Source: Flexivirga meconopsidis | GTDB taxonomy: Bacteria; Actinomycetota; Actinomycetes; Actinomycetales; Dermatophilaceae | Reading direction: 5' to 3' | DNA: 64,000 nucleotides | Assembly: GCF_026162425.1 (NCBI RefSeq) | Contig: NZ_JAOBQJ010000002.1 | Span: 496,001-560,000 of the forward strand | Shown here: positions 1 through 64,000 of the stretch, in pieces | Layout: every line of letters begins with the position of its first letter | How positions within the stretch are numbered: position 1 is the stretch's first letter | Notes under the pieces: generated by a model | The model's input: the letters and a program-made list of their open reading frames with translations, nothing else | What the model was told of the DNA's origin: nothing | The model's database searches: none | Program-made: the position numbers and the translations under genes

Positions 1-1
1 G

Positions 2-2921: not shown

Positions 2922-4454
2922 TTACGAACACGCGCAACCCGGGCCGGCGGCAACAGCTGCCGGCTCGGGTTTTCCGATGGCGGGCATGCCGAGCGACACC
3001 GCGGGCTTGCGCACTGCGCCGTCACCGCCGTCAGCGGCACCGGCCTGCAGCGCCTCCCACGCGTCACCGCCGGGCGTGCGGCGCACCGCCCAGGTGCCGC
3101 CCTGCACCGGGGAGTCGGCCACCAGGTGGTGCGGCGCGCCATAGGTGACGTCGACGGAGACGACGTCACCGGGACGTGGCCGCTCGGTGCCCTCGGGCAC
3201 CGCGAAGTGCACCAACCGGTTGTCCCGGGCGCGACCCGACATGCGCTGGGTCTCGGCGTCCTTGCGACCCTCGGACGGTGCGACCAGCACCTCCAGGGTC
3301 CGGCCCTCGAGAGCCCGGTTGCCGGCCCAGGAGACTTCCTCCTGCAATTCGATCAGCCGGTCGAACCGTTGCTGCACAACGGCTTTCGGCAATTGGTCCG
3401 GCAGGTCGGCCGCCGGGGTGCCGGGCCGGATGGAGTATTGGAAGGTGAACGCCGAGGAGAAGCGCGCCTCGCGCACCACCCGCATGGTCTCCTCGAAATC
3501 GGCCTCGGTCTCCCCCGGGAAGCCGACGATGATGTCGGTGGTGATCGCGGCGTCCGGCATCCGGTCGCGCACCCGGTCGAGGATGCCGAGGAACTTGTCC
3601 GACCGGTAGGACCGGCGCATCGCCTTGAGCACCCGGTCGGAGCCGGACTGCAGCGGCATGTGCAGTGACGGCATGACGTTGGGCGTCTGCGCCATCGCGT
3701 CGATCACGTCGTCGGTGAAGGCCGCCGGGTGCGGTGAGGTGAAGCGCACCCGCTCCAGGCCCTCGATCTCGCCGCACGCGCGCAGCAGTTTGCCGAAGGC
3801 GAGGCGGTCACCGAATTCCACGCCATACGTGTTGACGTTCTGGCCGAGCAGCGTCACCTCGACGACGCCCTGCTCGACCAGTGCCCGCACCTCGGCGAGC
3901 ACGTCGCCCGGGCGGCGGTCCTTCTCCTTGCCGCGCAGCGACGGCACGATGCAGAACGTGCAGGTGTTGTTGCAGCCGACCGAGATCGACACCCACCCGC
4001 TGTATGCCGAATCGCGTCGGGTCGGCAGCGTGGACGGGAAGGTCTCCAGCGACTCGAGGATCTCGACCTGCGCCTCGGCGTTGTGCCGCGCGCGCTCGAG
4101 CAGCACCGGCAGCGAGCCGACGTTGTGCGTGCCGAAGACCACGTCGACCCACGGCGCGCGACGGACAATCTCCTGCCGGTCCTTCTGGGCGAGGCAGCCG
4201 CCGACCGCGATCTGCAGGTCCGGGTTGTCGGTCTTGGCCGGGCGCAGCTGGCCGAGCTGGCCGTAGAGCTTGCCGGCGGCGTTCTCGCGCACCGCGCAGG
4301 TGTTGAAGACCACGACGTCCGGGCTCTCGGGACGGGCGTCATCGGTCAGCGCGGCCCGGTCGACATACCCGGCCGACTCCAGCAGACCGGCGATCCGCTC
4401 GGAGTCGTGGACGTTCATCTGGCAGCCGTGGGTGCGCACTTCATAGGTCTTCAT
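2922..4454 (-). CDS. miaB: tRNA-2-methylthio-N6-dimethylallyladenosine synthase
   Basis: Radical-SAM methylthiotransferase that adds a methylthio group to i6A37 of tRNAs. The N-terminal UPF0004 domain carries the auxiliary cluster cysteines at about 11, 53 (NTCAVREN) and 87 (GGCLAQ). The radical-SAM cluster is CNNTCTFC at residues 161-168, and a TRAM RNA-binding domain follows near the C terminus. At 510 residues it is slightly long because of a Gly/Ala/Pro-rich tail ending CACS. In many actinobacteria miaB follows recA-recX; here about 5 kb of other genes separate them. Its last codons contain the betA terminator hairpin. Identification is firm. Confidence 0.95.
2936..2975 (+). terminator. 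Hairpin after betA, inside the 3' end of miaB
   Basis: A 13-base inverted repeat with one mismatch (2936-2948 and 2959-2971) has a 10-base loop and is followed by four T residues on the plus strand. It begins 23 bases after the betA stop, so it fits an intrinsic terminator for betBA. It is also coding sequence for the Pro/Ala-rich C-terminal tail of the convergent miaB. Confidence 0.6.
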
Positions 4455-4520
4455 GACCGATCCAGGGTACGGCGTGGCTCACCGCTCTCCCGAATCGCGC
4501 GGGCCGGGTACGCCGCTTCG

Positions 4521-4946
4521 CTAGCGCACCGGGCGCGCGAGCGCGCCAAGCGCGGCGACGAACACCGCCAGTGCGGGAAGCGCGATCACCACACAGAGCC
4601 AGGCACCCAGGACCATGAGGTATCCGGCGCCGGTGGCCAGCACGATCCCCATCACGAGCGCCAACACCGCGCCGACCTGGGCACCTCGCAGCGACAAGAC
4701 GCCCGCCAGCACGCCGACCACAGCGACCACAACGGCAGCGACGAGCAGGACGACCACCGGCCCCCAGATGCCGCGGGCGTAGTCGTGGGCACCGTGCTCC
4801 GAAGCCGCCCAGAGCCCGAACAGCCCGATGAGTCCGAGCAGCACGAGGATCGCCAGCAGGGTGATCGCCGATGTCACGAACATCAGGACGGCCGTAGTGA
4901 TCCACCACCCACGATCGGGCGATGGCTGTGCTCGCGCATCCGTCAT
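4521..4946 (-). CDS. Small polytopic membrane protein, unknown function
   Basis: Hypothetical protein of 141 residues with four predicted membrane helices and a short soluble N terminus rich in Asp, Arg, Pro and Gln. I recognise no catalytic motif. I chose the ATG at 4946 (MTDARAQ) because the upstream codons in the same frame do not resemble coding sequence. It lies between miaB and the GlcD-like gene on the same strand, with 66 bp to miaB, so it could be co-transcribed with miaB. The Gly/Ala/Val-rich helices resemble DUF-type actinobacterial membrane proteins in general, but I cannot assign a family. Confidence 0.65.
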   Translation of the reverse strand: MTDARAQPSPDRGWWITTAVLMFVTSAITLLAILVLLGLIGLFGLWAASEHGAHDYARGIWGPVVVLLVAAVVVAVVGVLAGVLSLRGAQVGAVLALVMGIVLATGAGYLMVLGAWLCVVIALPALAVFVAALGALARPVR

Positions 4947-5005
4947 ACCGGCCGACAGTAGGACACCCGGACTGGCGAAAACCACTGTCCACAGGACGCT
5001 TCCGC

Positions 5006-6382
5006 TCAGAAGACCTTTCCCGGATTGAAGGTGCCCTCGGGATCGAGCGCCTGCTTGACCGCCCGCTCCATCGCCAGCACCTCGGGTCCGAGCTCCCGCG
5101 CCACACCGGGCATCTTGAGCAGCCCGACGCCGTGCTCGCCGGTCACCGTGCCGCCCAGGTCGAGCGCCTCCTCGATGATCCGGTCGAACGCCGCCTGCGC
5201 CCGCGCCTTCGCCTCGTCATCACCCCGGCCGGTGATCATCAGCGGGTGCAGGTTGCCGTCGCCGGCGTGCGCGACCGTGGCGATCGTGATGTCGCTGTCG
5301 GCGGCGATCCGCTCCACCCGCCGCAGCATCTCCGGCACGTGCTCCTTGGGCACGCAGACGTCCTCGGTGAGCAGCGGCCCGAGCCGCTCCATCGCCGGGT
5401 AGGCGAGACGCCGGGCGGCCATCATCGCGTCGGCTTCCTCCGGGTCGGCGGTCTCGGCGACGAACGTCGCATTGCCCGCCTCGAACGCCGCGACCATCTC
5501 CTCTGCTGCCCGCTTCCCTGCCTCGCCCGGTTCGTCGACCTTGCCAATCAGCACCACGTTCGCCTCGGACGCAATGCCCATGTGGGTCATCTCGTCGACG
5601 GCGAGCAGGCAGGTGCGGTCGACGAGTTCGAGTGCGGACGGGGTGAGCCCGCGCGCCGCGACATCGCGCACCGCGACACCCGCGTCCACGATGCCGTCGA
5701 AGTAGCCGAGCACGGTGCGACCCGGGTCGGGCAGCGGGCGCAGCTTGACGGTGATCTCGGTGACGATGCCCAGGGTGCCCTCGGAGCCGACGAACAGGCC
5801 GACCAGGTCGAGCCCGGCCACCCCCTTCGCCGTACGCCGGCCGAGGCGCACGACCTCGCCGGTGCCGGTCACCACCTCGAGGCCGATGACGTAGTCGCGG
5901 GTCACGCCGTACTTCACGCAGCACACGCCGCCGGCGTTGGTGGCGACGTTGCCGCCGATCGTGGACCAGGGCGAGCTCGCGGGGTCCGGCGGATACCAAA
6001 GTCCTTGCGTGGCAACGGTTTTGCGTAGGTCATCGTTGACGACACCGGGCTGTACGACGGCGAGGCGTTCGAGCGGATTGACCTCGAGCACCTGGTTGAG
6101 CTTCTCCAGAGAGATCACCACACAGCCCTCGAGGGCGTTCGCGCCACCGGACAGGCCGGTGCCCGCGCCCCGGGGCACCACCGGCACGCGGTGCTCGAGC
6201 GCCCAGCGCACGGTTTCCTGCACGTCGGCGGTGCTGCCGGCGCGCACCACCGCCACGGGTTTGCCGTATGCCGCCCACTCGGCCTCGTCGTGCAGGTAGG
6301 ACTCCAGCAGGGCCGGATCGGTCACGACGGCCCTGTCACTCAGCCGGCCCTCCAGTTGCCCGATCTGGTCGCGATCGCTCAT
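5006..6382 (-). CDS. FAD-linked oxidase, glycolate/D-lactate dehydrogenase type
   Basis: VAO/PCMH-type flavoenzyme of 458 residues, similar to GlcD and D-lactate dehydrogenases that oxidise 2-hydroxy acids. The FAD-binding N-terminal half has RGAGTGLSGG (about residues 71-80) and SPWSTIGGNVATNAGG. The C-terminal FAD-oxidase domain has AHAGDGNLHP and TGEHGVGLLK, typical of GlcD-like enzymes. No iron-sulfur partner (GlcE or GlcF) is nearby, so it probably acts alone, as single-subunit D-lactate or 2-hydroxyglutarate dehydrogenases do. The family call is secure; the substrate is not determined by sequence. Confidence 0.85.
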   Translation of the reverse strand: MSDRDQIGQLEGRLSDRAVVTDPALLESYLHDEAEWAAYGKPVAVVRAGSTADVQETVRWALEHRVPVVPRGAGTGLSGGANALEGCVVISLEKLNQVLEVNPLERLAVVQPGVVNDDLRKTVATQGLWYPPDPASSPWSTIGGNVATNAGGVCCVKYGVTRDYVIGLEVVTGTGEVVRLGRRTAKGVAGLDLVGLFVGSEGTLGIVTEITVKLRPLPDPGRTVLGYFDGIVDAGVAVRDVAARGLTPSALELVDRTCLLAVDEMTHMGIASEANVVLIGKVDEPGEAGKRAAEEMVAAFEAGNATFVAETADPEEADAMMAARRLAYPAMERLGPLLTEDVCVPKEHVPEMLRRVERIAADSDITIATVAHAGDGNLHPLMITGRGDDEAKARAQAAFDRIIEEALDLGGTVTGEHGVGLLKMPGVARELGPEVLAMERAVKQALDPEGTFNPGKVF

Positions 6383-6432
6383 CCGCCGACGCTATCGCGC
6401 CGCCGCACAATTCCGGCGGACAGCCCGACTGC

Positions 6433-7059
6433 TCAGCGCGGGATCAGGGTCAGCCCGATCGCCGCGAACACGCCGCCGGCCACCCGGTCGATGACCTTCT
6501 GCAGGCGCTTGTATGCCGCGACGACCGGCTGGGCGCCGGCGCACCAGCTGACGGCCGCAAACCAGCCGGCACCCATCGCGAGCATGATCGCGAGCAGCGC
6601 CACCCGCATCGCGGGCGACGCGCCGTGCGGCATCAGCGTCGCGAACAGCGCACCGAAGAAGACCAACGCCTTCGGGTTGGACAGATTGGTGAAGAGGCCG
6701 AGGCGCCAATGGTGCCGATGTGACTGTGGTTGCTTGCCATTCGGCATCCCCGGCGTCTCTGCACCGGACGACGCGGCGTTGCGGGTCGACCACAGCACGT
6801 GCAGGCCGTAGCCGATCAGCAGGACCGCGCCGACCGCCCGGATCACCAGATAGAGGTGCTCGTAGCGGGCCATCAGAGCGCTCAGTCCGACCAGGGCGAG
6901 CGTGGCCCAGCACGCCATACCGCACACGACGCCGAGGCCGACGCGCAGGCCGGCGGCCCGACCGCGCGCCGCGGCGGTGCGCAGGACGGCGAGGAAGTCC
7001 GGCCCGGGCGTCACCACGCAGACGGCCCAGGCGAGCAACAGCGGAGCGATCGCGAGCAT
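6433..7059 (-). CDS. LysE/RhtB-family amino-acid exporter
   Basis: Inner-membrane exporter of 208 residues with about six hydrophobic segments and the family N-terminal signature TPGPDFL near residues 17-23. LysE/RhtB proteins export amino acids such as lysine, homoserine or threonine by proton antiport. The gene starts 5 bp after the XRE-cupin gene on the same strand, so the two form an operon in which the regulator probably senses the exported compound. Length and motif match the family. The substrate is unknown. Confidence 0.88.
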   Translation of the reverse strand: MLAIAPLLLAWAVCVVTPGPDFLAVLRTAAARGRAAGLRVGLGVVCGMACWATLALVGLSALMARYEHLYLVIRAVGAVLLIGYGLHVLWSTRNAASSGAETPGMPNGKQPQSHRHHWRLGLFTNLSNPKALVFFGALFATLMPHGASPAMRVALLAIMLAMGAGWFAAVSWCAGAQPVVAAYKRLQKVIDRVAGGVFAAIGLTLIPR

Positions 7060-7064
7060 GTCTT

Positions 7065-7622
7065 CTATCCGATCATCGGTGAGGCGATGAGCACGGTCAC
7101 GTCGGCCGGCTCGTGGTCGGTGCGGTAAGTGTGGGACGCGTCGCCGGCGAAGGCGAGCAGATCTCCCATGCTGAGCACCGTCAGGTCGTCGGTGGGCCCA
7201 GCGCGCAGCGATCCGGACGCGACGACCAGGTGCTCGACGGTGCCCGGGGCGTGCGGCACACCCTCGAACTCGGTGGCCGGTGGCATCCGCAGCCGCCAGA
7301 TCTCGACCTGGTGGCCGCCGGTGACGCGGCGCAGCAGCTCCCGGTCGATCTCACCCTCGGTGCCGGGAGTGCCGCGGATCAGCTGCGGCCCGGTGTCCTC
7401 GCCGCGAACGAGCAGGTCGGACAACGGGATCCCGAGTGCGACGGCAACCGCGTCGAGGGTGTCGATCGTCGGGTTGGCGCCGCCCGACTCAAGGCTGGAC
7501 AGTGTCGCCTTGGACACACCCGAGCGCCTCGCAAGCTCGGCGGCGGACATCCCCCGCTGCCCGCGGCGCGCGCGGATCTGGGCGCCGACGGCAGCGGCGA
7601 GGTCGGACGATCCGGTGGGCAT
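7065..7622 (-). CDS. XRE-family regulator with C-terminal cupin
   Basis: DNA-binding protein of 185 residues. An HTH_3 domain occupies about residues 9-63 (MSAAELARRSGVSKATLSSLE), and a small cupin domain lies at about residues 105-180. Regulators of this architecture usually control a neighbouring transport or catabolic gene in response to a ligand bound by the cupin barrel. Here the LysE exporter is 5 bp downstream. A sigma-70-like promoter and a dyad overlapping its -10 lie directly before the ATG, consistent with autoregulation. The ligand cannot be told from sequence. Confidence 0.88.
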   Translation of the reverse strand: MPTGSSDLAAAVGAQIRARRGQRGMSAAELARRSGVSKATLSSLESGGANPTIDTLDAVAVALGIPLSDLLVRGEDTGPQLIRGTPGTEGEIDRELLRRVTGGHQVEIWRLRMPPATEFEGVPHAPGTVEHLVVASGSLRAGPTDDLTVLSMGDLLAFAGDASHTYRTDHEPADVTVLIASPMIG

Positions 7623-7624
7623 GC

Positions 7625-7656
7625 GTTCACTATAGCGAACGTTTCGACTGTTTCAA
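7625..7656 (-). promoter_or_regulatory. Promoter and probable operator of the XRE-lysE operon
   Basis: Read on the minus strand: -35 TTGAAA (7651-7656), a 16-bp spacer, and -10 TATAGT (7629-7634), only a few bases before the ATG at 7622. A 16-bp near-palindrome, GTTCGCTATAGTGAAC (7625-7640), covers the -10, where a repressor would block transcription. The XRE protein encoded just downstream is the obvious candidate ligand. Confidence 0.65.
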
Positions 7657-7678
7657 TAGCTTTCGGGAGTGGGCCGGC

Positions 7679-7741
7679 CGCCGAGGTAGCACTCGATGTC
7701 GCCAAGAGCGCCGGGATACGACGTCCAGTGCTACCTCGGCG
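7679..7741. repeat. Perfect 15-bp inverted repeat with 33-base loop
   Basis: Two arms, 7679-7693 and 7727-7741, are exact reverse complements (outer core GCCGAGGTAGCACT). The repeat lies between the 3' end of the methyltransferase gene and the promoter of the XRE gene, both on the minus strand. As RNA it could end methyltransferase transcription, although no T-run follows and the loop is long for a classical terminator. Confidence 0.6.
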
Positions 7742-7767
7742 CTCACCCGCCGGCACCGCCGGGCCGC

Positions 7768-8577
7768 TCAGCGCACGCCGACCATGACGTAGTCGTCGCC
7801 GTGCTGCCACACCGCGCCCGCCTCGGCGCAACCCGCGGCGCGCAGCGCCGCCGCCAGCCCCTGCCGGGTGGCCGGCGGACGATCGTCGTCGGCGCGGGCC
7901 GCGAAGGCCAGGCGCTCCCGCCGGGCCGACAGCTCGGCCAGCTCCGGCGCGGCATGCGCCGCCGCCCACCACGCAGACCAGTCCTCGCCGTCGACGCGGC
8001 CGGTGCGGCGCACGCCTGCTGCGGCGACCTGGCGCCGCACGTCGTCGAGCCGCGGCTCGGAGTCCGGCTCGTAGAAGTGGTCCCCGTCGACGAAGACACC
8101 GCCCGGCGCGAGCGCTTCGACCGCCTCATGGACAACGGTCGCCAACGCGGCCCCGGGCAACCAGTGCAGCGCGGTGGTGCTGACGAATGCGTCGGGCGCG
8201 CGGTCGAGGCCGAGCCGGCGGAGCCAGCCAGTCTCGCTGAGATCCGCGGCCACGACGCGGAATCTCTCACTGCCGTATGCCGATGCGGCCAGCCCGAGCA
8301 GCAGCGGATCGAGGTCGACGCCGACGACGGTCGCACCCGGCAGCTGTCGCAGGAGACGCGACGCCAAGGATCCGGGACCGACACCGAGATCCACGATCAG
8401 TGGGTCGTCGCGTCGCACGCACGCCTGCACGACGTCGGCGATCACTGCGAACCGTTGCTCACGATCGACGAAGTAGGTGCCTTGTTGGTCGTCCCATCGC
8501 CGCAGCCATCGCAGTGCCACGTCCCGGTCGAGTTTCGTTGCGGCGCAGGTCTGCTGAGTCACGTAGTCATCTGCCAT
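7768..8577 (-). CDS. SAM-dependent class I methyltransferase
   Basis: Cytosolic methyltransferase of 269 residues with a Rossmann fold. Motif I is VDLGVGPGS (residues 62-70) and the acidic SAM-ribose contact is GVDLD (about 86-90). A later STTALHWLP stretch is typical of trans-aconitate/TAM-like methyltransferases, which act on small carboxylic acids, but the substrate is uncertain. It is divergent from the LysR gene at 8650, with 72 bp between the starts, so LysR may control it. Confidence 0.82.
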   Translation of the reverse strand: MADDYVTQQTCAATKLDRDVALRWLRRWDDQQGTYFVDREQRFAVIADVVQACVRRDDPLIVDLGVGPGSLASRLLRQLPGATVVGVDLDPLLLGLAASAYGSERFRVVAADLSETGWLRRLGLDRAPDAFVSTTALHWLPGAALATVVHEAVEALAPGGVFVDGDHFYEPDSEPRLDDVRRQVAAAGVRRTGRVDGEDWSAWWAAAHAAPELAELSARRERLAFAARADDDRPPATRQGLAAALRAAGCAEAGAVWQHGDDYVMVGVR

Positions 8578-8649
8578 GGATCCAGACTCTCGGGAGCAGC
8601 CATCGCACGGTAGCCGCCAGGTTGCGTGCAGCTTCCATAGTCTGTGCCT

Positions 8650-9513
8650 ATGGACTCATTGCCCGAGGTCGACGACCTGCGTCTTGTCGTCGCTGTCGCA
8701 CGGACCGGATCGGTGGGAAGCGCCGCCCGGTCGTTGCGCATCTCGCAGCCGTCGGCGAGTGCACGGCTCTCCCGGCTCGAACGCCGCGTGGGTGCAACGC
8801 TTTTCGACCGTGACACAACTGGCGCACGACCCACGCCCGCCGGTTCGGAGCTGGTGCGGCAGGCGCGGCACATCCTCGGCCATCTGGAGGGGGCGTTCGC
8901 CGCGAGTCGGGCGGCAATGCTGGAACGACGCCTGGTCGTTGGGACCTTTGCGAGCCTCACCTCACTGCTGTTTCCGGCGCTCGACGCGCTGCTGCCGGAG
9001 GTTGCGATCGACCAGCGGCAGGATCACGGTCCGGTGCTGCTGCAATGGGTCGCGGAGGGTTCGATGGACGCAGCGTTCGTGGCCGTGGCCGACCAGGTCG
9101 AGGTGCCGTCGTCGGTGGTCATCCACCAGGTGGGCACCGATCCGCTCGTGCTGTTTCGTGCGGTCGGGGTCGAGCCGATGAGTCGGGGCCGACTGCCGTT
9201 GCGCGACCGGCAGGTGGTCGCGTCGACCTACGACCTGAGCACCGAGGAGGTGCTGGAGGGGCTGCACCGCCTGGGCGCCGATGCTCGGCCGGGCGTGACC
9301 TTGGCGGCGGCGATCGCGATGGCCCGCAAGCGGGGCCACCTCGCGGTCCTCCCCCGGAGCGCGGTCGCCTTCGACCTGCGCGAGGGCGAGGTGGTCGAGC
9401 GGCTGCCGTTCCGGAGGTCAATGCGTCTCGCCATGGCGACACCCCGCACCGCCGATCCGCGCCTGCTCGGCGTGCTCCGCGGGCTGCGCCGCGAACTCGA
9501 TCTCGCCCGCTAG
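8650..9513 (+). CDS. LysR-family transcriptional regulator
   Basis: LysR regulator of 287 residues. An N-terminal winged helix-turn-helix occupies about residues 8-65 (SAARSLRISQPSASARLSRL), followed by a substrate-binding domain. I chose the ATG at 8650 over a GTG two codons upstream. No clear Shine-Dalgarno precedes it. The divergent methyltransferase gene 72 bp away is the probable target, as LysR proteins usually act on divergent neighbours. The downstream region holds a structured element and convergent recX. Confidence 0.88.
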   Translation: MDSLPEVDDLRLVVAVARTGSVGSAARSLRISQPSASARLSRLERRVGATLFDRDTTGARPTPAGSELVRQARHILGHLEGAFAASRAAMLERRLVVGTFASLTSLLFPALDALLPEVAIDQRQDHGPVLLQWVAEGSMDAAFVAVADQVEVPSSVVIHQVGTDPLVLFRAVGVEPMSRGRLPLRDRQVVASTYDLSTEEVLEGLHRLGADARPGVTLAAAIAMARKRGHLAVLPRSAVAFDLREGEVVERLPFRRSMRLAMATPRTADPRLLGVLRGLRRELDLAR

Positions 9514-9606
9514 CCCGCAGCCACCGCTGCCCTGTACCGACAGGCCGACGCACGCATTGGCCAGTCGGTGCATGACCGGCGAATGATGCGCCCGTATGAC
9601 ACGCAC

Positions 9607-9692
9607 GAGTGACGACGCTCGCAATGAGTGACGTCGATGCAGCGCCGTCGTTCGTTGCGGCGGACGTCACTCGACGTGGGCGGCCGTCACTC
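9607..9692. repeat. Four GAGTGACG half-sites, two direct and two inverted
   Basis: GAGTGACG occurs at 9607 and 9626. Its complement CGTCACTC occurs at 9665 and 9685. The inner pair extends to a 10-bp stem (9626-9635 with 9663-9672) that encloses a second possible stem, CGCCG with CGGCG. The element fills the gap between convergent lysR and recX. It could be a bidirectional terminator or a protein-binding array. No T-run follows. Confidence 0.5.
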
Positions 9693-9745
9693 GATCACCG
9701 GGCCGCCCTTTGAAGAAGTGACCGGTCGGCATCGACCGCGAGCGC

Positions 9746-10468
9746 TCAGTCCGGTTGGTGCTCCGGGGCGTCCGCGATCGCCTCGCGGATGACCGACCAG
9801 GCAATCGATGACGAATAGCCTTTGCGGGCAAGCATTCCGGCGAGCCGCCGGGTCTGCACGGTGGCGTCGAGTCCGTGCATCGAGCGCAGCTTCTTGTCGA
9901 CGAGCGCACGGGCGCGGTCGCGCTCGCTCTCCTCGTCGATCTCGTCCAGCTGCTCCCGGGCGATCTCCTCGTCGACGCCCTTGCGACGCAACTCCTGTTG
10001 CAGCGCCCGGCGGGCCAGGCCCCGGCTCGCCTGCTGGGAGCGGACCAGCATGCCGGCGTATGCCGCGTCGTCGATCAGCCCGACCTCTTCCATCCGGTCG
10101 AGCACTTCGGTGGCGACCTCGTCGGTGCAGCCGCGTTGGCGCAGCTTGTCGGCAAGCTGTTTGCGGCTGCGCGGCGCCATCGTCAGCTGCCGCAACACGA
10201 TCGTGCGAGCGACTTCGTGCGGATCGGGCTCGGCGTCGGGGTTGTCGGCCGGTGGCTCGCGGTCCCGGCGGCGCTGACCCGAACGACTCCCGCGGCCGCC
10301 GCGACCACGCTTGGCCGGCGACCGCTCCCCCGACCACTCGACCCGCCGTCGTGAATTGGCGCCGGTCGCCGGCCCGGACGACGCCGCGGCCGAGGTCGGG
10401 CGCTCCGGCACGTCCGCCGGGTCGACGAAGTCCGGCAGCGAATCCGACTCGGTGTCAAAGGGTTTCAA
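9746..10468 (-). CDS. recX: RecA regulatory protein RecX
   Basis: RecX of 240 residues, which binds RecA filaments and inhibits their extension. The C-terminal two thirds hold the helical RecX repeats (LADKLRQRGC, LIDDAAYAGML, RRKGVDEEIA, GYSSSIAWSVI). The first 80 or so residues are a charged, Arg/Ser/Pro-rich extension common in actinobacterial RecX and probably disordered. It lies 225 bp downstream of recA, separated by a hairpin and three 29-bp repeats, which should keep its level below that of RecA. Confidence 0.93.
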   Translation of the reverse strand: MKPFDTESDSLPDFVDPADVPERPTSAAASSGPATGANSRRRVEWSGERSPAKRGRGGRGSRSGQRRRDREPPADNPDAEPDPHEVARTIVLRQLTMAPRSRKQLADKLRQRGCTDEVATEVLDRMEEVGLIDDAAYAGMLVRSQQASRGLARRALQQELRRKGVDEEIAREQLDEIDEESERDRARALVDKKLRSMHGLDATVQTRRLAGMLARKGYSSSIAWSVIREAIADAPEHQPD

Positions 10469-10521
10469 AGGTGCGCTCTCCTTCGCAGCCGAACGGTGGT
10501 CTCGATGCGGGCCTCGCCTAG

Positions 10522-10605
10522 CGGCTCGGCCCTACTCGACCACCGCGTGGCGGCTCGGCCCTACTCGACCACCGACATGACGGCTCGGCCCTACTCGACC
10601 ACCAG
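10522..10605. repeat. Three tandem 29-bp repeats between recA and recX
   Basis: The segment CGGCTCGGCCCTACTCGACC recurs at 10523, 10552 and 10581, an exact 29-bp period, joined by short varied linkers. Before it stands GGTCTCGATGCGGGCCTCGC, so the block resembles the dispersed GC-rich intergenic repeats that I recall from Nocardioides- and Intrasporangium-like genomes. It lies just upstream of the recX start and would be transcribed in any recA-recX read-through message. Confidence 0.7.
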
Positions 10606-10640
10606 CCGTGCGCCCGGGTCTCGCGACCGTCGATCGAGCA

Positions 10641-10679: not shown

Positions 10680-10693
10680 GGGTCTTGTCTCGA

Positions 10694-11965: not shown

Positions 11966-11996
11966 AAAAGCGGGTCGCTCGGCGTGTCGGTTCGGC

Positions 11997-12959: not shown

Positions 12960-13025
12960 CCTGCGCCCGACCCCGCCCCGACCTCGCGCAGCTGCGTGGT
13001 CTGCGGCGGCCCGGGTGTCCGGGTC

Positions 13026-56634: not shown

Positions 56635-56816
56635 GCCGGCACCGGTCGATATAGCCAGCGAATGCATCGAAGAATGGTGATGCCTTCGCCCGAGGCACGA
56701 ATTCCCTTTGCTGCCAACGTCTTTGAGCGTTCGTACTATACAGTCGTCCAGCGTCTGCGACGGTGGAGATGGCGGCGGCGACCGCCGCGGCCTGCGACAG
56801 CTCAAGGGAGAAGCTT

Positions 56817-57416
56817 ATGGCAGACAACGTGATCCTGATGACCTGGCCGGACCAGAGCAAGGCCTATCAGGCATACAGCGATCTGAACGCGCTCTCCAAC
56901 GACGGCGCGATCGACCTGGTCAGCGCGGCCGTCGTGCAGCGCAACCCGGACGGCACGTTCACCGTGAAGGACGGCGACGACAACGAGATCGGCTCCGGCA
57001 CCCTCGGCGGCAGTGTCATCGGCATGCTGGTCGGCGTGCTCGGCGGACCGCTCGGCATGCTGCTCGGCTGGGCCGGGGGTGCGCTCGTCGGTGGCACGGT
57101 CGACGCCGGACGGGCCGCCGACACCTCCAGCGTCGTGGCCGACCTGAGCCGGGCGATCCCGCCCGGGGTCACCGGCCTGATCGGCGAGGTGAAGGAGGGC
57201 TCGCCCGCGGCCGTCGACCAGCTCGCCCAGCAGAGCGGCGCCACACTGGAACGCCGACCGCTCGACGAGGTGATGGACGAGGTCGCCGAGGCCGAGGACG
57301 CCGCGATCGCGGCAGCCGACGCCGCCGACCGGAAGCTGCACGAGGAGAAGAAGGCCGAGCGCAAGGCCGACCGCAAGGAGCGCCTGGACAAGATCAAGGC
57401 CAAGCTGCACGTCTGA
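56817..57416 (+). CDS. DUF1269-family membrane protein
   Basis: 199-residue protein of the DUF1269 type: an N-terminal ferredoxin-like segment (NVILMTWPDQSKAYQAYSDL), a Gly-rich hydrophobic stretch (GSVIGMLVGVLGGPLGMLLG, about 70-90) and a highly charged, coiled-coil-like C terminus (KKAERKADRKERLDKIKAKL). Such proteins are linked to stress or membrane integrity but have no assigned activity. AAGGGAGAAG precedes the ATG. The 182-bp upstream region contains a TATACAG box but no convincing -35. It is separate from the kdp operon. Confidence 0.75.
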   Translation: MADNVILMTWPDQSKAYQAYSDLNALSNDGAIDLVSAAVVQRNPDGTFTVKDGDDNEIGSGTLGGSVIGMLVGVLGGPLGMLLGWAGGALVGGTVDAGRAADTSSVVADLSRAIPPGVTGLIGEVKEGSPAAVDQLAQQSGATLERRPLDEVMDEVAEAEDAAIAAADAADRKLHEEKKAERKADRKERLDKIKAKLHV

Positions 57417-57434
57417 CCGGCGCCGCCGGCCTGG

Positions 57435-57956
57435 TCAGACCGCGTCGACCTCGCCGTCGCGGTGCGTGGCGGCGAGGTCGAGGTAGACCTGCGCGTTGAG
57501 ACCGATGACCTCGACCTCCTCGTCGCTGAGCTCGCGGCGGACCTTCGCCGGCACACCGGCGACCAGGGACCTCGGCGGCACCTGCATGCCCTCGGGTACG
57601 ACGGCGCCGGCCGCGATCAGCGAACCCGCGCCGATGACAGCCCGGTTGAGCACCCGCGCGCCCATGCCGACCAGCACGTCGTCCTCGATGGTGCAGCCGT
57701 GCAGGGTTGCGTTGTGCCCCACCGAAACTCGCGCACCGACCGTCAGCGGGGCGCCCGGATCGGCGTGCAGCACGCTGTTGTCCTGGATGTTCGTGTCCTC
57801 CCCGAGAGCAACGGTCTCCAGGTCCGCGCGCAGCACCGCGCCGTACCAGATCCCGCACCGCTCCCCCACGGTCACGGCGCCGACAACGGTGGCATTGGGC
57901 GCGACCCAGGCCGAGGCGGCCACCGACGGCACTCGGTCCGGTAGTCGAATCAACAT
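57435..57956 (-). CDS. Gamma-class carbonic anhydrase-like protein
   Basis: 173-residue left-handed beta-helix protein with hexapeptide repeats (IGAGSLIAAGAVVPEG, VSVGHNATLHGCTIEDD, TVALGEDTNIQDNSVLHADP). The zinc ligands are the histidines near SVLHAD and VGHNATLHG, in the usual gamma-CA/YrdA arrangement. Many relatives have weak or no carbonic anhydrase activity. It is the third gene of a minus-strand set with two membrane proteins and an overlapping ion channel. It converges with the DUF1269 gene. Confidence 0.88.
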   Translation of the reverse strand: MLIRLPDRVPSVAASAWVAPNATVVGAVTVGERCGIWYGAVLRADLETVALGEDTNIQDNSVLHADPGAPLTVGARVSVGHNATLHGCTIEDDVLVGMGARVLNRAVIGAGSLIAAGAVVPEGMQVPPRSLVAGVPAKVRRELSDEEVEVIGLNAQVYLDLAATHRDGEVDAV

Positions 57957-57961
57957 GGCGC

Positions 57962-58672
57962 TCAGAAGGTCTGCGGCTTGCGCCGCATGAGATGGACCGC
58001 GACGGTCGCGAGTCCGACGATCCAGCCGGCGACGACGCCCCAGGTCGCTCCGGAGGTCGCATCGGCACGAACGACCTCCACGAAGATGTCGCTCCGGCCG
58101 ATCAGACCGGCCACCACCCGCGCGATCGCGCCGCCGATCACGCAGGTCATCCAGGCTGACAGGAAGACCGCGAAGCTGCCGCCACCCGCGCGCACCGACA
58201 TGGTCGCCGCCATGAGCAGGAGCAGCACCACGAAGACCACGATGACCAGTGCGGCGATGAAAGCCGTTGTCACCTTGGATGATCCGCCGTCGAACGGCCA
58301 CGGCGCGAGCGGGATGGTCTGGGCGAACCAGCCGTCCCAGCTACGGAGGTTGAAGCTGCCGTTGCGCGCCACCTGATAGCCCAGGAAGCTGCTGAGCACC
58401 ATGAGCAGCCCGCCCACCACCGCGCCGACGGTTGCTGCCGGAAAGCCACTGCCGCCCTTGTCCGCTCGCGCGCCCGGCTCGTATCCCGGGCGGGGGCCAC
58501 CGGGTGCGTAGCTGCCGGGGGCCCGGTAGTCGGGCTGCCGGTAGTCGGGCGCGCCCTCGGCGGCAGCTTGCTGCGGGTAGGGCTGGCGGGCGTAGTTGGG
58601 TTCGTCGGCCTCCCCGCGCTCCCAGTCCGGTGCGCGCCGGATCTCCTGGGTGCGGTCGAAATCGTCGGTCAT
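57962..58672 (-). CDS. Membrane protein with Pro/Tyr-rich N terminus, unknown
   Basis: 236-residue protein: about 85 N-terminal cytosolic residues rich in Pro, Tyr, Gly and Gln (YARQPYPQQAAAEGAPDY), then about four membrane helices (AATVGAVVGGLLMVLSSFLG, AFIAALVIVVFVVLLLLMAA). There is no recognisable active site. ATG 58672 overlaps the ion channel stop (ATGA) and the stop is six bases from the carbonic anhydrase gene, so the three are one operon. Possibly ion-linked; function unknown. Confidence 0.7.
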   Translation of the reverse strand: MTDDFDRTQEIRRAPDWERGEADEPNYARQPYPQQAAAEGAPDYRQPDYRAPGSYAPGGPRPGYEPGARADKGGSGFPAATVGAVVGGLLMVLSSFLGYQVARNGSFNLRSWDGWFAQTIPLAPWPFDGGSSKVTTAFIAALVIVVFVVLLLLMAATMSVRAGGGSFAVFLSAWMTCVIGGAIARVVAGLIGRSDIFVEVVRADATSGATWGVVAGWIVGLATVAVHLMRRKPQTF

Positions 58673-59430
58673 TGCTCGCCATCCCCTCGCTCGTGCTGCA
58701 GCTTGGTGCGCTGGAACCGCGCGAGCGTCATGCCGAGCAGTCGCGCCACCACCAACGCAAGATAGTTCACCCCGGCCAGCTGCTCCAGCATGATGACCGA
58801 CCGCGCGTAGGAACCCGCCGGGGAGATGTCGGACAGCCCGGTGCCGGTCATCGTGGTGAAGGACAGGAAGAGCAGCTCCATCCAGCTGAGCTGTCCGCCG
58901 CCTGGTGAGCTGAACTGCCCTGCGCCCCAGACGATCTGCACCGCACCGTACACATACGCGAAGCCCCACGCGACAACCGTGAAACATGCTCCAGTCGCGA
59001 GCATTTCGTCCCGCGACACATGATCGTCGGAGAACATGTAACGGATCAGCGCGTAGGCCGTGTAGAAGTAGAAGACCGCGTGCGTGGCGTCGGACGCCAG
59101 CTCCAGCCCCTCCGGGTCGGGCCAGATCGCGGTCAGCACGGTAAGCACCGCGGCCGGGGCGCCGATGCCCACCGAGATCCAGGTCAGCGCCGGCGTGTGC
59201 CGCACCGCGCCGACCGCCAGCGCGAGCACCAGCAGTTGGAACAGCGAAAACACCGTCCGCCCGGCCGTGCTGCCCTCGGTGAACGGGTAGACCAGGATGC
59301 CGAGCAACTGCACCGCAAGCAGCACGCCGCACGGTACCTCGCGCAGTTGGGCGAGCAACCGCCGCGGGCTGAGCCGCTCGGCGAATCCGCCTGCTGCGGG
59401 GCTCAGTCGCGACGATCCGTCAGCGCCCAC
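58669..59430 (-). CDS. Potassium-channel-like membrane protein
   Basis: 253-residue protein with about six helices, the last pair enclosing a pore loop of Ion_trans_2 type (LLFLSFTTMTGTGLSDISPA). The filter reads T-M-T-G-T-G-L-S-D where classical potassium channels have T-V-G-Y-G-D, so selectivity is uncertain and non-selective conduction is possible. No RCK domain is attached. Its start lies 28 bases inside the end of ftsK, on the same strand; it probably reads from the ftsK transcript. Confidence 0.75.
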   Translation of the reverse strand: MGADGSSRLSPAAGGFAERLSPRRLLAQLREVPCGVLLAVQLLGILVYPFTEGSTAGRTVFSLFQLLVLALAVGAVRHTPALTWISVGIGAPAAVLTVLTAIWPDPEGLELASDATHAVFYFYTAYALIRYMFSDDHVSRDEMLATGACFTVVAWGFAYVYGAVQIVWGAGQFSSPGGGQLSWMELLFLSFTTMTGTGLSDISPAGSYARSVIMLEQLAGVNYLALVVARLLGMTLARFQRTKLQHERGDGEQ

Positions 59431-62252
59431 GCGTCCTCGCCACCGCCGTCGTCGTCGCCGTAACCGGTCGTCTCGCCCTGCTCGGCGGAGGCCCCGTCAT
59501 ACGGCTGCTCGGTGGGGACGTCCTCACCGCGCAGCAGCGCCAGCGTGGTCGGCAGGTCGTCGGGTTTGACCAGCACGTCGCGCGCCTTGGATCCCTCCGA
59601 CGGGCCGACGATGCCGCGGCTCTCCATCAGGTCCATCAGGCGGCCGGCCTTGGCGAAGCCGACGCGCAGCTTGCGCTGCAGCATCGACGTCGACCCGAAC
59701 TGGCTGGTGATCACCAGCTCCGCCGCCTGCAGCAGCAGGTCGAGGTCGTCGCCGATGTCCTCGTCGATCTCCTTCTTGGGCGCGGAGACCTGCACGTCGT
59801 CGCGGTAGGCAACGGTCAGCTGGCCCTTGACGTGCGAAACCACCTCTTGCACTTCGGTTTCGGTGACCCAGGCGCCCTGCACACGCATCGGTTTGGAGGC
59901 ACCCATCGGCAGGAAGAGCGCGTCGCCTTGGCCGATCAGCTTCTCCGCGCCGGGCTGGTCGAGCACGACTCGGGAGTCGGCGAGTGAGGACGTCGCGAAC
60001 GCCATACGGCTCGGCACGTTGGCCTTGATCAGACCGGTGACGACATCGACCGACGGCCGCTGCGTGGCCAGCACCAGGTGGATGCCGGCCGCGCGCGCGA
60101 GCTGAGTGATGCGCACGATCGACTCCTCGACGTCCCGCGGCGCGACCATCATCAGGTCGGCCAGCTCGTCGACGATCACCAGCAGGTAGGGGTAGGGCTG
60201 CATGACCCGCTCGGACCCCGGAGGCGGGGTGACCTTGCCGGACCGGACCGCCTTGTTGAAGTCGTCGATGTGCTTGAAGCCGAACGCGGCCAGGTCGTCA
60301 TACCTGGTGTCCATCTCGCGCACCACCCACTGCAGCGCCTCGGCGGCCTTCTTGGGATTGGTGATGATGGGCGTGATCAGGTGCGGAATGCCTTCGTATG
60401 CCGTCAGTTCCACCCGCTTGGGGTCGACCAGCACCATCCGCACCTCGTCCGGCGTGGCGCGCATCATCACCGAGGTGATCATCGAGTTGACGAACGACGA
60501 CTTACCGGCGCCGGTCGCACCGGCGACGAGCATGTGCGGCATCTTGGCCAGGTTGGCGATGACGTAGCCGCCCTCGACGTCCTTGCCGACGCCCATCACC
60601 ATCGGGTGCTCGTTGCTGCGCGCCGCATTGCTGCGCAGCACGTCGCCGAGGCTGACCTTCTCGCGGTCGGTGTTGGGGATCTCGATGCCGATCGCCTTCT
60701 TGCCCGGGATCGGGCTGAGGATCCGCACGTCGGCGGAGGCCACGGCATACGCGATGTTCTTGGAGAGCGCGGTGACCCGCTCGACCTTGGTGCCGGAGCC
60801 GAGCTCGACCTCGTAGCGCGTCACGGTCGGGCCGCGGGTGAACCCGGTGACCTGCGCGTCGACGCCGAACGACTCAAGGGTCTCGGTCAGCGCCTCGACC
60901 ACCCGGTCGTTGGCCGCCGAGCGGGCCTTGTGCGGCGTGCCCGGCTGCAGGACGTCACCGGACGGCAACGTGTAGGTGACGTCGCCGGCCAGCTGCAACT
61001 GCTCGACCCGCTGCGGCAGCGGCGTGGTCGGCGGCGCTTCGAGGCCAGGCTTGGGACCGGGCGGCGCCGCGGCAGCCGGCGGGGCGCCGGTGGTGCCGGG
61101 CAGCGCCACCGCGCGGGTGTCGCCGGTGGCCGGTTTGCGGTCCACGTCCGTGTCCCCGGTCGGGCGGGCGGCGCCGGACGCGTCCGCGCCGGCGTCGGTC
61201 GCCGCATCCACGTCGTAGACATCGCCCGCGGGAGCCTTCTCCCCCGGGCGCAGCACGCGACCGCCCTTGGTACGCCGCGGCGCGACGGTCGCGGCCTGCT
61301 CGAACGCCTCGTCGCCGTCCAGTCCTTCGCTCTCGGCGTCGGACTTCTTGGCCGACTTGCGGCGGCGCTTCTTGGGGCCGTCGGCCGGCCCGTCGATCTC
61401 CGAGCCGTGCAGGTCGCCGGCGACGGCGTCGACGGGGCCCTCGTCATACTCGTCGGCGGGGTGGTGGTCGAACAGTCGCGCGCGGACCTGCTGAATGCGC
61501 TCGGGGATCATGCTCACCGGCGTGGCGGTCATCACCAGCACGCTGAACACGCCGAGCAGCAACAACAAGATGAGCGCACCCACGTTGTGGATGGCCGCGA
61601 CCACCGGGCTCGAGGCGAGGAAGCCGATGATCCCCCCGGCGTCGCGCAGCGCTTCGCCGCTGCTCGGTTGGGGCACGCCCTTGGCGATGCTGGTCACCCC
61701 GCACACCGAGATCGCGAAGAGCGCCAGGCCGATCAGCACCCGGTTGGTGGCGTGGTGACCGCGCGGCGAACGCATCAGATGGACGCCGATCAGCACCAGC
61801 ACCAACGGAAGCACCAGTGCGCCGAGACCGAAGGTGCCCGCGACGATCGCATGGATGACGTCACCCGCGACTCCGGCCAGGCCCCACCACTCCCGGGCGG
61901 CGATCACGACGGCGGCGGCGATCAGCGCGAAGCCGAGGCCGTCGCGGCGCAGCTCTGGTTCGAGCTCGCGGGCGGAGTGACCGACGCGGCGCGCGGCTCC
62001 GCCGGCAACGTGAGCGACTCCCATCCAGGTCCCGCGGGCGGCCCGCAACGGCAGCGGCAGCCCACCGCCCTGCGCCTTGCCGCCCGCGCGGGCGCTGGCG
62101 CCCGACGCGCGCTTGGCCGGCGGCCGGCTGGAACTGCGCCCGGAGGCAGGCCGCGACTTCGCGCCACCGCTGCTCGCCCGCGACCCGGCGCCGGACTTGG
62201 TACTGCGCGTGGCGCGGGCGGAGGACGTCGTGGTGGACGGACGGGTAGGCAC
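59403..62252 (-). CDS. ftsK: DNA translocase FtsK/SpoIIIE
   Basis: About 949-residue FtsK. It has an N-terminal Ser/Arg/Ala-rich stretch, then four or so membrane helices near residues 90-240, a charged linker (KKRRRKSAKKSDAE), and the motor domain with Walker A VAGATGAGKSS, Walker B LLVIVDELADL, and ATQRPSVDVVTG. The C-terminal gamma winged helix (LQRKLRVGFAKAGRLMDLME) recognises KOPS. It pumps chromosome ends through the closing septum. The GTG at 62252 is the most likely start; earlier in-frame codons run into repeat array B. In actinobacteria it is the outer end of the recA block. Confidence 0.95.
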   Translation of the reverse strand: MPTRPSTTTSSARATRSTKSGAGSRASSGGAKSRPASGRSSSRPPAKRASGASARAGGKAQGGGLPLPLRAARGTWMGVAHVAGGAARRVGHSARELEPELRRDGLGFALIAAAVVIAAREWWGLAGVAGDVIHAIVAGTFGLGALVLPLVLVLIGVHLMRSPRGHHATNRVLIGLALFAISVCGVTSIAKGVPQPSSGEALRDAGGIIGFLASSPVVAAIHNVGALILLLLLGVFSVLVMTATPVSMIPERIQQVRARLFDHHPADEYDEGPVDAVAGDLHGSEIDGPADGPKKRRRKSAKKSDAESEGLDGDEAFEQAATVAPRRTKGGRVLRPGEKAPAGDVYDVDAATDAGADASGAARPTGDTDVDRKPATGDTRAVALPGTTGAPPAAAAPPGPKPGLEAPPTTPLPQRVEQLQLAGDVTYTLPSGDVLQPGTPHKARSAANDRVVEALTETLESFGVDAQVTGFTRGPTVTRYEVELGSGTKVERVTALSKNIAYAVASADVRILSPIPGKKAIGIEIPNTDREKVSLGDVLRSNAARSNEHPMVMGVGKDVEGGYVIANLAKMPHMLVAGATGAGKSSFVNSMITSVMMRATPDEVRMVLVDPKRVELTAYEGIPHLITPIITNPKKAAEALQWVVREMDTRYDDLAAFGFKHIDDFNKAVRSGKVTPPPGSERVMQPYPYLLVIVDELADLMMVAPRDVEESIVRITQLARAAGIHLVLATQRPSVDVVTGLIKANVPSRMAFATSSLADSRVVLDQPGAEKLIGQGDALFLPMGASKPMRVQGAWVTETEVQEVVSHVKGQLTVAYRDDVQVSAPKKEIDEDIGDDLDLLLQAAELVITSQFGSTSMLQRKLRVGFAKAGRLMDLMESRGIVGPSEGSKARDVLVKPDDLPTTLALLRGEDVPTEQPYDGASAEQGETTGYGDDDGGGEDAWALTDRRD

Positions 62253-62321
62253 GAAAACACCGTACGCGACGACCCCACCAGTCACAGCAGTTACACGCCG
62301 GTTGGGGGTGCCGGCCGTTCT

Positions 62322-62729
62322 GCACGACCGTCGGCACAAAAGTGCACCCGGCCCGGCCGCGGGCGCCCCTTACGCACGACCGTCGTCGGAAAAGTGCACC
62401 CGGCCCGGCCGCGGGCGCCCCTTCCGCACGACCGTCGTCGGAAAAGTGCACCCCGCCCGGCCGGGAGCGCCCCTTCCGCGCGACCGTCGGCACAAAAGCG
62501 CACCCGGCGAGCTGCGAGCGCCCCTTCCGCACGACCGTCGGCACAAAAGCGCACCCGGCGAGCCGCGAGCGCCCCTTCCGCACGACCGTCGGCACAAAAG
62601 TGCACCCGCCGAGCCGCGGGCGCCGCTTCCGCACGACCGTCGGCACAAAAATGCACCCGACGAGCTGCGGGCGACCCTTCCGCACGACCGTCGGCACAAA
62701 AGTGCACCCCGCCCGGCCGCGAGCGCGCC
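62322..62729. repeat. Array B: eight tandem repeats of 51-52 bp
   Basis: Part of the 694-bp gap between ftsK and the class-V PLP gene. Units begin with GCACGACCGTC at 62322, 62374, 62426, 62478 (here GCGCGACC), 62529, 62580, 62631 and 62682: periods of 52, 52, 52, 51, 51, 51, 51. Each contains GACCGTCGGCACAAAAGTGC, with GCAC-AAAA-GTGC a small hairpin. Copies 2 and 3 have GTCGTCGGAAAAGTG instead. The skeleton ACCGT-N11-TGCAC recalls ACCGT-N9-TGCAC of array A. Frames stay open through part of it, but I see no ribosome site for a protein. Confidence 0.9.
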
Positions 62730-62785
62730 CGACATACGGACGGCATTTGCGGCGGCCGGTGGCCGATCCTCTATGGTCTTACGCA

Positions 62786-62902
62786 GGTCATGAGTCTCAG
62801 CGTCAAGCCCCGGCTTGCTGAGCGGCAACCCTCCTTCCGCGGTGGGGTGCTCCGGGTGACGACCGGGTCGGCGTGACAACCCACGTCGGCAAGCGCGGAT
62901 CG
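62786..62902 (+). ncRNA. SAM-IV riboswitch
   Basis: The leader matches the actinobacterial SAM-IV (S-adenosylmethionine) riboswitch: GGTCATGAG (62786-62794) pairs at GGTC with GACC (62861-62864). The core contains CAGCGTCAAGCCCCGGCTTG (62799-62818) and CGGCAACCCTCC (62823-62834). The 3' segment CGGCAAGCGCGG (62887-62898) forms the distal pseudoknot element. A CGTCGGT/ACCGACG hairpin (62917-62935) ends exactly at the ribosome site GAGGAG (62935-62940), which suggests translational control. The regulated gene is the class-V PLP enzyme at 62947. The TATGGT box at 62772-62777 is a possible -10. Confidence 0.9.
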
Positions 62903-62916
62903 GCGACGCGAGCGCC

Positions 62917-62940
62917 CGTCGGTCCCTGACCGACGAGGAG
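62917..62940 (+). promoter_or_regulatory. Hairpin touching the ribosome site of the PLP gene
   Basis: CGTCGGT (62917-62923) and ACCGACG (62929-62935) form a 7-bp stem with loop CCCTG; GAGGAG begins at its last base. It is the probable expression platform of the SAM-IV riboswitch. Confidence 0.6.
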
Positions 62941-62946
62941 CAGCTC

Positions 62947-64000
62947 ATGAGCACCGCAAGCATCCAGCAGACCACCACCCCCGCCGAATCCGCGGCCGGT
63001 CCCGGCGCGCCGCGCCGCCTCGACCTGGTCGGCAAGCTGCCCTCGGGCCCCCGCCCGGTCGTGGCCGGTCTGCCCCGCACCGTGTCCGACGATCTCGGCG
63101 TGCCGACGGTGCACCACACCGTCATCGACTACGCCAACTTCGACCACGGCGCGACCACGCCCGCACTGGTCGCGGTCGCCGAGGCGGCGCAGCAGGTGCA
63201 GCGCCGCTACGGCTCGGTCCACCGCGGGGCCGGTTACGCCAGCCGGGTCACCACCGGCTGGTTCGAGGCGGCGCGGGCGCAGGTCGGGCAGTTCGTCGGC
63301 GCGCGGGACGGTGACCAGGTCGTCTTCACCCGCAACACCACCGACGCACTGCGACTGCTCGCGCACTGTCTGCCGCGCCGCACCCGGGTGATCGCCTGGG
63401 AGTCGGCGCACCACGCCGCGCTGCTGCCGTGGCCGGCCCGCACCACCACCCGGCTGCCGGTGCCGGACAGCGCCGACGACGCGGTCGCGTTGCTGCGAGA
63501 GGCCCTACAGGACTCCCCCGCGCGTCACCAGCTGGTCGTCCTCACCGGCGCCTGCAACGTCACCGGCGAGGTCTGGCCGATTGCCGAACTCGTCGCAGTG
63601 GCAAAGGAATTCGGCGCCCGGACCGTGCTCGATGCGGCGCAGTACGCACCGCACCGCGAGCTCGACCTGGAGGAGCTAGGGGTCGATTGGGTCGCGTTCT
63701 CCGGGCACAAGCTCTATGCCCCGTATGGCGCAGGCGTCCTCGCCGGGCGCAGCGACTGGCTGGACGCGGCCGGCCCCTACCTGCCCGCAGGTGGCGCCAC
63801 CGCGGCAGTGACTCCCCGTCATACGCACTGGCAGACGGGGCCCGCCCGGCACGAGGGCGGCACGCCCAACGCGGTCGGTGCGATCGCCATCGCCGCGGCC
63901 TGCGCGACCCTGCGCGCGCACCGGGCGACCATCGAGGCGCACGAGGAGCAACTGCACGGCCGGCTGCGGGCCGGCCTCGCCGCGATCGACGGCGTGCGCG
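62947..64000 (+). CDS. Class-V PLP aminotransferase, cysteine-desulfurase-like, 3' end cut
   Basis: Class-V fold-type I PLP enzyme, 351 codons visible. It begins MSTASIQQTT with GAGGAG six bases before the ATG. Family marks are YANFDHGATTPAL, VVFTRNTTDALRLLAH, and the PLP lysine Lys255 in FSGHKLYAPYGAGVL. Cysteine desulfurases or kynureninase/selenocysteine-lyase relatives have this layout. Which one is not clear, since the C-terminal Cys loop lies beyond the window. A SAM-IV riboswitch controls it, so it probably works in sulfur amino-acid metabolism. The sequence runs off the window end with no stop. Confidence 0.85.
   Translation, partial: MSTASIQQTTTPAESAAGPGAPRRLDLVGKLPSGPRPVVAGLPRTVSDDLGVPTVHHTVIDYANFDHGATTPALVAVAEAAQQVQRRYGSVHRGAGYASRVTTGWFEAARAQVGQFVGARDGDQVVFTRNTTDALRLLAHCLPRRTRVIAWESAHHAALLPWPARTTTRLPVPDSADDAVALLREALQDSPARHQLVVLTGACNVTGEVWPIAELVAVAKEFGARTVLDAAQYAPHRELDLEELGVDWVAFSGHKLYAPYGAGVLAGRSDWLDAAGPYLPAGGATAAVTPRHTHWQTGPARHEGGTPNAVGAIAIAAACATLRAHRATIEAHEEQLHGRLRAGLAAIDGVR

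Follow-up and report, generated by a model that had tools for sequence, protein, structure and literature searches.

Why is one short non-palindromic word, the 8-mer GTATGNCG, written over and over on both strands of a stretch of the Flexivirga meconopsidis genome? The stretch, called the window here, comprises the whole 64,000 nucleotides from 496,001 to 560,000 of contig NZ_JAOBQJ010000002.1 (G000:C3:496001-560000, where G000 is this Flexivirga genome). Our favoured answer, to which we give a probability of roughly 0.55 on the strength of sequence patterns, is that GTATGNCG is a putative orientation-specific, uptake-sequence-like self tag of Flexivirga and its relatives, kept by biased transformation.

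A preliminary description of the window had claimed that the word was over-used, that it was split evenly between orientations, and that chance would give about a quarter of its count. The over-use was borne out and is larger than claimed: the window holds 86 exact copies, evenly split with 43 on each strand, and the chance expectation is well below a quarter, since 100 dinucleotide shuffles of the window gave a mean of 4.34 copies (sd 2.31, largest 12). Genome-wide, we counted 5,745 copies in 4.28 Mb (2,913 on the plus and 2,832 on the minus strand), as against 477 and 484 for the reversed word. In 405 kb of the genome, 535 copies were found where first-, second- and third-order Markov models predicted 31, 36 and 76, respectively, and no other 8-mer with one free base stood out as strongly (535 vs 36). 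The larger sample used below, 776 kb in 37 stretches with an all-N contig and one overlapping stretch excluded, contained 1,085 copies. All eleven example coordinates of the preliminary description were correct; its free base, placed fourth from last, is actually third from last, and the flanking G that it held to be strongly kept is not, as no base outside the 8-mer adds more than about 0.2 bit in this genome. The copies in the window are laid out as follows.

3821-63824, both strands: field of 86 copies of GTATGNCG, 43 per strand, with 58 orientation alternations and 27 repeats.
4002-63730, plus strand: copies of 8 bp each, starting at 4002, 6266, 6511, 8275, 10058, 12089, 12143, 13193, 13308, 13691, 13725, 13895, 15714, 18572, 20274, 21454, 24119, 24886, 26967, 28153, 30454, 32712, 33162, 33684, 36406, 38475, 39640, 41991, 44490, 46196, 46973, 47061, 49159, 50089, 50194, 51027, 52995, 53920, 54178, 55738, 56538, 60396 and 63723.
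3821-63824, minus strand: copies that read CGNCATAC on the plus strand, with low ends at 3821, 4361, 4941, 6913, 12184, 12394, 13263, 13673, 14162, 15816, 16991, 19303, 20135, 20825, 21769, 22454, 24603, 26864, 27285, 27857, 29757, 29814, 34562, 37201, 37556, 38808, 41817, 42901, 43343, 45769, 46651, 48864, 49549, 52023, 53156, 55312, 59495, 60000, 60296, 60743, 61442, 62730 and 63817.

The longest part of the window free of the word is its first 3.8 kb (1-3820).

The distribution of the word was determined in 186 genomes of the family (Dermatophilaceae in GTDB) and in 229 genomes outside it, the search covering the order only. Carriers were genomes in which the word occurred 500 times or more and outnumbered its reversed form by a factor of at least 2.5; they made up 105 of the 186 family genomes and came from 29 of 53 genera. 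Among the 229 genomes of the order sample none stood out by eye, the top count being 502 vs 444 for the reversed word. Within the genomes sampled, the word is confined to one family. Its form differed between the stretches sampled: GTATGNCG in G000, G167 and G093, CGTATGCCG in G099, GTATGCCGCG in G164, CGTATGCCGT in G072 and G173, and GGTATGCCGT in G115, the last resting on 10 sites only. A C-type spelling, GTACGNCG (GTATGNCG being T-type), reached at least 2,400 copies in 13 of the 186 genomes, and its enrichment was verified on the sequence in G002, G083, G087 and a Luteipulveratus locus. Match coordinates in common identify G087 as a Luteipulveratus and G030 as F. caeni. Four C-type genomes (G004, G012, G143 and G146) additionally contained T-type copies, between 556 and 1,357 each, and two of the four (G143 and G146) are counted among the 105 carriers as well. 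One genus, g32, holds both spellings, with 8,164 C-type and 68 T-type copies in G083 and 3,862 T-type and 698 C-type copies in G084. The form in G083 extends to GTACGNCGNC, and 186 of 692 copies of the GTACGNCG dialect there are a two-sided 12-mer, CGNCGTACGNCG, which carries both orientations at once (L058-L059, L120, L222-L237). When G083 was aligned with G084, none of 30 C-sites was kept, 3 were GTATGCCG and 27 were otherwise changed, and G083 had C-sites at 3 of the 9 T-sites aligned, numbers too few to claim a respelling of sites between dialects. Two genera, g26 (16 genomes) and g46 (12 genomes), lacked the T word throughout; in one 40-kb sample each, the C word was found 15 times vs 11.4 expected and 19 times vs 16.4, and genome-wide in g46 it was about three times as frequent as its reversed word. 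The comparison with relatives that the preliminary description had proposed shows a word carried by part of the family and written in species-specific dialects.

Most copies lie within genes, and the word might result from codon or dipeptide usage, or from biased mutation, for instance the deamination of methylated GTACGNCG. Further codon-driven words are likewise over-represented, including, as we take it, TCTACGNC, which was raised in most sampled genomes and was rejected as a further signal. In addition, GTACGNCG is rarer than its reversed word in many carriers (171 vs 739 in G110 and 177 vs 912 in G111, for example), a deficit that would equally follow if the T spelling were favoured at the codons concerned. 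For this Flexivirga genome, however, the counts refute such an origin. In 696 genes, predicted with a simple purpose-made open reading frame caller and not taken from annotation, we found 915 copies vs 88±11 when synonymous codons were swapped between genes and 118±7 when they were swapped within genes. The placement in gene bodies noted in the preliminary description is also not specific to genes, the density being 1.31 per kb between genes and 1.40 per kb overall. Rare codons were used to spell the word: TAT made up 343 of 417 tyrosine codons in the context NNG-TAY-GNC-G vs 568 of 3,784 elsewhere, an NCA codon was used in 246 of 348 cases of xCG-NCN-TAC vs 22 of 645 elsewhere, and the context NNG-TAY-GNC-G was itself enriched (417 vs 187 after shuffling). 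Because conversion of GTACGNCG would keep the sum of the two spellings, and the sum in genes was 1,125 vs 353±18 after synonymous shuffling, simple conversion is excluded in this genome. Nor is GTACGNCG depleted here, at 1.4 of the second-order expectation and 1,364 copies genome-wide vs 1,130 of its reversed word; the 21 single-mismatch neighbours ranged from 0.2 to 2.3 of second-order expectations, and copies of the word inflate several of those expectations. Other genera are enriched in the C spelling, and codon-driven words tend to repeat in one orientation, whereas GTATGNCG alternates. We see next to no chance that the word arose as such a by-product, and its over-use survives both the Markov models and codon usage, the two explanations that the preliminary description had named as able to refute it.

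The word is also maintained at orthologous sites. When the window was aligned to homologous stretches of four other Flexivirga genomes (28-49 kb of the 64 kb aligned), intact sites were kept in 47 of 64 cases in G029, at 91% identity, and in 28 of 46, 39 of 62 and 21 of 41 cases in G032, G031 and G030, at about 80% identity. Control words permuted from the same bases were kept at 58% in G029, 28% in G032, 27% in G031 and 28% in G030, so that at about 80% identity 51-63% of GTATGNCG sites persisted vs 27-28% of control words. Within the word, TAT codons persisted in 22 of 26, 13 of 19, 19 of 27 and 12 of 19 cases in the four genomes, and outside it in 18 of 34, 8 of 24, 14 of 29 and 4 of 17.

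The arrangement of the copies showed that each strand carries its own regular series. In the 110 genomes where the word reached 500 copies and was no less than twice as common as its reversed form, strand totals were 136,217 and 136,764 (sd of z 0.85, largest 3.0), and regional strand counts were more even than chance (chi2 14.7 on 35 stretches; 7.0 on 19 stretches in G083). Replichore skew was judged from this balance of stretches, the origin not having been located; the balance bears out the earlier argument that a lack of strand bias speaks against KOPS (the orienting sites of FtsK) or a replichore-biased Chi. Neighbouring copies alternated in orientation 671 times and repeated 375 times in 756 kb. 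The even spacing claimed previously was found for same-orientation copies (coefficient of variation 0.77), whereas all copies taken together were spaced nearly at random (0.955). From one 250-bp bin to the next, same-orientation pairs rose from 0.45 of expectation to 0.61, 0.70 and 0.83 and then levelled off at about 1, whereas opposite-orientation pairs stayed at about 1 in both arrangements and all bins. Between 20 and 750 bp the ratios were 0.60 and 1.10, respectively; 150 control words of the same form, most of them higher in G+C and each present 700-1,600 times, gave 1.02±0.08 and 1.00±0.06, and none was as low as GTATGNCG. Same-orientation pairs were likewise scarce in four other Flexivirga genomes (0.38-0.70) and in seven T-dialect genomes of other genera (0.65 pooled vs 1.17 for opposite pairs; G115, with 8 sites, was excluded), and a 22-kb Luteipulveratus locus gave 0.62 from few pairs. 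Alternation alone was not significant in G030 (44:34), G031 (80:58), G164 (69:56), G167 (53:36), G072 (23:14), Leekyejoonella (3:6) or the metagenome-assembled genome TET1 (11:13). Because the rule holds within one orientation and does not depend on the other strand, GTATGNCG is read directionally or on one strand. Of the functions offered in the preliminary description, DNA uptake fits best, and a nucleoid or structural role is disfavoured, since a protein that packs double-stranded DNA would not require spacing to depend on orientation.

Genes that could serve DNA import are present. A comEA gene (SLBB and HHH domains) and comEC lie about 30 kb to the left of the window, and three loci elsewhere in the genome encode T2SSE ATPases, one of them clustered with TadE and Tad domains. 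A Tad-like cluster near a resolvase at G000:C3:8001-28000 (L085) contains TadE, two T2SSF proteins, an ATPase and a 1,090-aa LysM protein. In the family, comEC was found in 180 of 186 genomes, comEA adjoined it in 21 of 21 loci read, in carriers and non-carriers alike, and T2SSE matches occurred in 80 of 80 genomes, 79 of them over the cut-off. The PDDEXK_1 nuclease domain was found in 79 of 79 genomes and, among the matches listed, in many open reading frames longer than 1,000 aa. Pilus ATPases, comEC and PDDEXK_1, being present in carriers and non-carriers alike, were rejected as markers of carriers. Among 76 family genomes, RecC was lacking in 29 of the 47 carriers examined and was found in 17 of the 29 non-carriers; therefore, RecBCD is not the general reader of the word. 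By spelling, RecC was present in 16 and absent from 18 T carriers, 2 and 11 C carriers, and 17 and 12 others, in classes of our own definition, T including G085 and the borderline G040, and C including G143 and G146.

These machines, together with the density, the strand balance, the dialects, the rare synonymous codons and one probable island, are best fitted by an uptake sequence. The island, G000:C1:80001-100000 (L013), has a lower GC content (0.643) and 7 copies, all within its first 3.7 kb, so that its remaining 16 kb has none; its density is 0.35 per kb vs 1.25-1.85 per kb in eight other stretches of C1, and it is probably a recent arrival nearly devoid of the word. We propose that DNA bearing the word would be taken up preferentially through a Tad-type pilus with ComEA and ComEC, and that the orientation of the word would select the strand, or the direction, of import. 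In natural transformation one strand enters the cell, and Duffin and Seifert reportedly described in 2012 a strand preference in gonococcal transformation. A second nearby copy in the same orientation would then bring no gain, and one in the opposite orientation would act as a second, independent channel. A copy would thus raise import only where none of the same orientation is near, which would produce two independent ladders. Biased import followed by recombination would increase the copies until each strand carries roughly one word per 1.3 kb, and the dialect would be rewritten when the putative receptor changes. Such a process could account for the accumulation of the word, the persistence of its sites, the probable island nearly free of it and the freedom of dialects to change.

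A close known system is the DNA uptake sequence (DUS) of Neisseriaceae, GCCGTCTGAA and its dialects, with the receptor ComP. Like GTATGNCG, it occurs at about one copy per kb, in thousands per genome, on balanced strands and alongside com genes, and its dialects vary across the family (PMC3630211). GTATGNCG is a different word in a Gram-positive host with Tad-type instead of type IVa pili. Uptake sequences are described for Pasteurellaceae and Neisseriaceae (PMC1939737), two Gram-negative groups from which such signals are best known. The uptake signal sequence of Pasteurellaceae is also a different word, and its orientation is reported to be irrelevant to uptake. The octamer HIP1 of cyanobacteria is also hugely over-represented, but HIP1 is palindromic, whereas GTATGNCG is not and its orientation matters. 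As a yardstick we used two genomes, of the order to which Methylophilus belongs, with 1,863 and 2,499 exact DUS, taken as Neisseriaceae because they carry DUS, and analyzed spacing in 120 kb of each. Convergent pairs under 250 bp were in 3.3- and 4.1-fold excess there and at 1.02 in this Flexivirga genome.

Several observations weigh against an uptake sequence. Spacing was not orientation-specific in the two DUS-bearing genomes (same/opposite 0.72/0.71 and 1.12/1.23), unlike that of GTATGNCG, though this comparison is our own and not a published criterion. Uptake by H. influenzae was reported to be independent of orientation (PMC1939737). Competence genes are equally present in motif-free genomes and do not track the word. 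GTACGNCG samples of at least 40 kb showed the spacing rule weakly or not at all (0.82/0.98, 0.95/1.14 and 0.96/1.13), perhaps owing to chance matches (693 copies vs 206 expected in G083) or to the two-sided copies. Finally, the spacing rule is what a Chi-like site predicts. The spacing logic thus leans to Chi, and the density, balance and dialects lean to uptake sequences, on yardstick samples that are small.

A Chi-like recombination hotspot would have as its reader a directional helicase-nuclease, not RecBCD but most likely AdnAB, which would load at a break, travel in a single direction and react to the word in one orientation only. For such an enzyme same-orientation copies would be redundant and opposite ones independent, the rule found in the GTATG dialects, and the long open reading frames with PDDEXK_1 domains are of the size expected of AdnAB. 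Chi, read by RecBCD or AddAB, is likewise short, non-palindromic and over-represented, and in E. coli it hints at the same spacing: a 500-kb sample with 112 sites contained 35 same-orientation pairs closer than 3 kb vs 50.4 expected (0.70) and 26 opposite pairs vs 27.4 (0.95). However, GTATGNCG is about six times denser (1.43 vs 0.22 per kb). E. coli Chi follows the replichores, with 63 to 18 sites in stretches that we presume to be clockwise and 8 to 23 in the others (chi2 35.5 on ten 50-kb stretches), whereas GTATGNCG is more even than chance. RecC is missing from most carriers examined, and dialects turn over fast; Chi rarely changes its dialect or disappears within a genus, and it is reported to have no effect on AdnAB. 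A Chi read by AdnAB would account for the spacing just as well, but it would leave the patchiness, the density and the lack of replichore bias unexplained, and we consider a Chi-like hotspot rather unlikely. From the sequence pattern one could also argue that a strand-specific methyltransferase or a defence system (Type III, BREX or Type IIG-like) would use the word as its self mark, with selection keeping a mark on both strands of every kilobase. The word is non-palindromic with an adenine on both strands, and its per-strand regularity would suit one-strand marking, but modification sites of this kind are not known to be over-represented about 15-fold, and this reading seems improbable to us. 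More doubtful still is a loading or orienting site of a DNA translocase of the FtsK/KOPS or TraB/clt type. Translocase motifs are short, non-palindromic and directionally read, as is GTATGNCG, but KOPS-type sites need replichore skew, and KOPS was rejected on the strand balance of the 35 stretches.

Micrococcus luteus, also an actinobacterium, is transformed by way of tad clusters with comEA/comEC, the same kinds of genes as here (PMC4322843). The phrase "uptake sequence" is absent from the main text of that study. In the titles and abstract beginnings of the open-licence papers listed by our searches, we found no description of GTATGNCG or of an actinobacterial uptake sequence. More broadly, and only tentatively, we suggest a strand-specific genomic address system that is new for actinobacteria and unlike known uptake sequences in its logic: each strand would bear, separately from the other, an evenly spaced series of a single directional word whose dialect would change from one sister species to the next, probably because DNA import or end processing recognises the strands one at a time. 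If an actinobacterial counterpart with dialects is real, self-selective DNA import would have evolved again in cells that have Tad-type pili but lack an outer membrane, and the family, sampled here in 53 genera, would offer a testbed for how such words arise, switch and vanish. Strand-by-strand spacing would provide a quantitative signature that separates orientation-blind uptake from directional reading and needs only a genome sequence.

Three further observations were made. In the window (1-64000, both strands), GGTACC and ATCGAT were strongly under-represented (4 vs 39.7 and 4 vs 50.4 expected), which may reflect restriction avoidance. G090, the one genome examined of three in g35, showed no GTAYGNCG enrichment, and its stretch C1:11854-40000 (L062-L063) contained 34 copies of CGAAGGGG, often as GCGAAGGGG(G/T), in 28 kb vs 2.9 expected; these alternated 24 to 9 (18 to 7 without close pairs), so that CGAAGGGG is perhaps another signal, an unrelated word with the same alternating layout. 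The same contig begins with a near-perfect inverted repeat (G090:C1:1-23709, 99.85%), either an assembly fold-back or a chromosome end.

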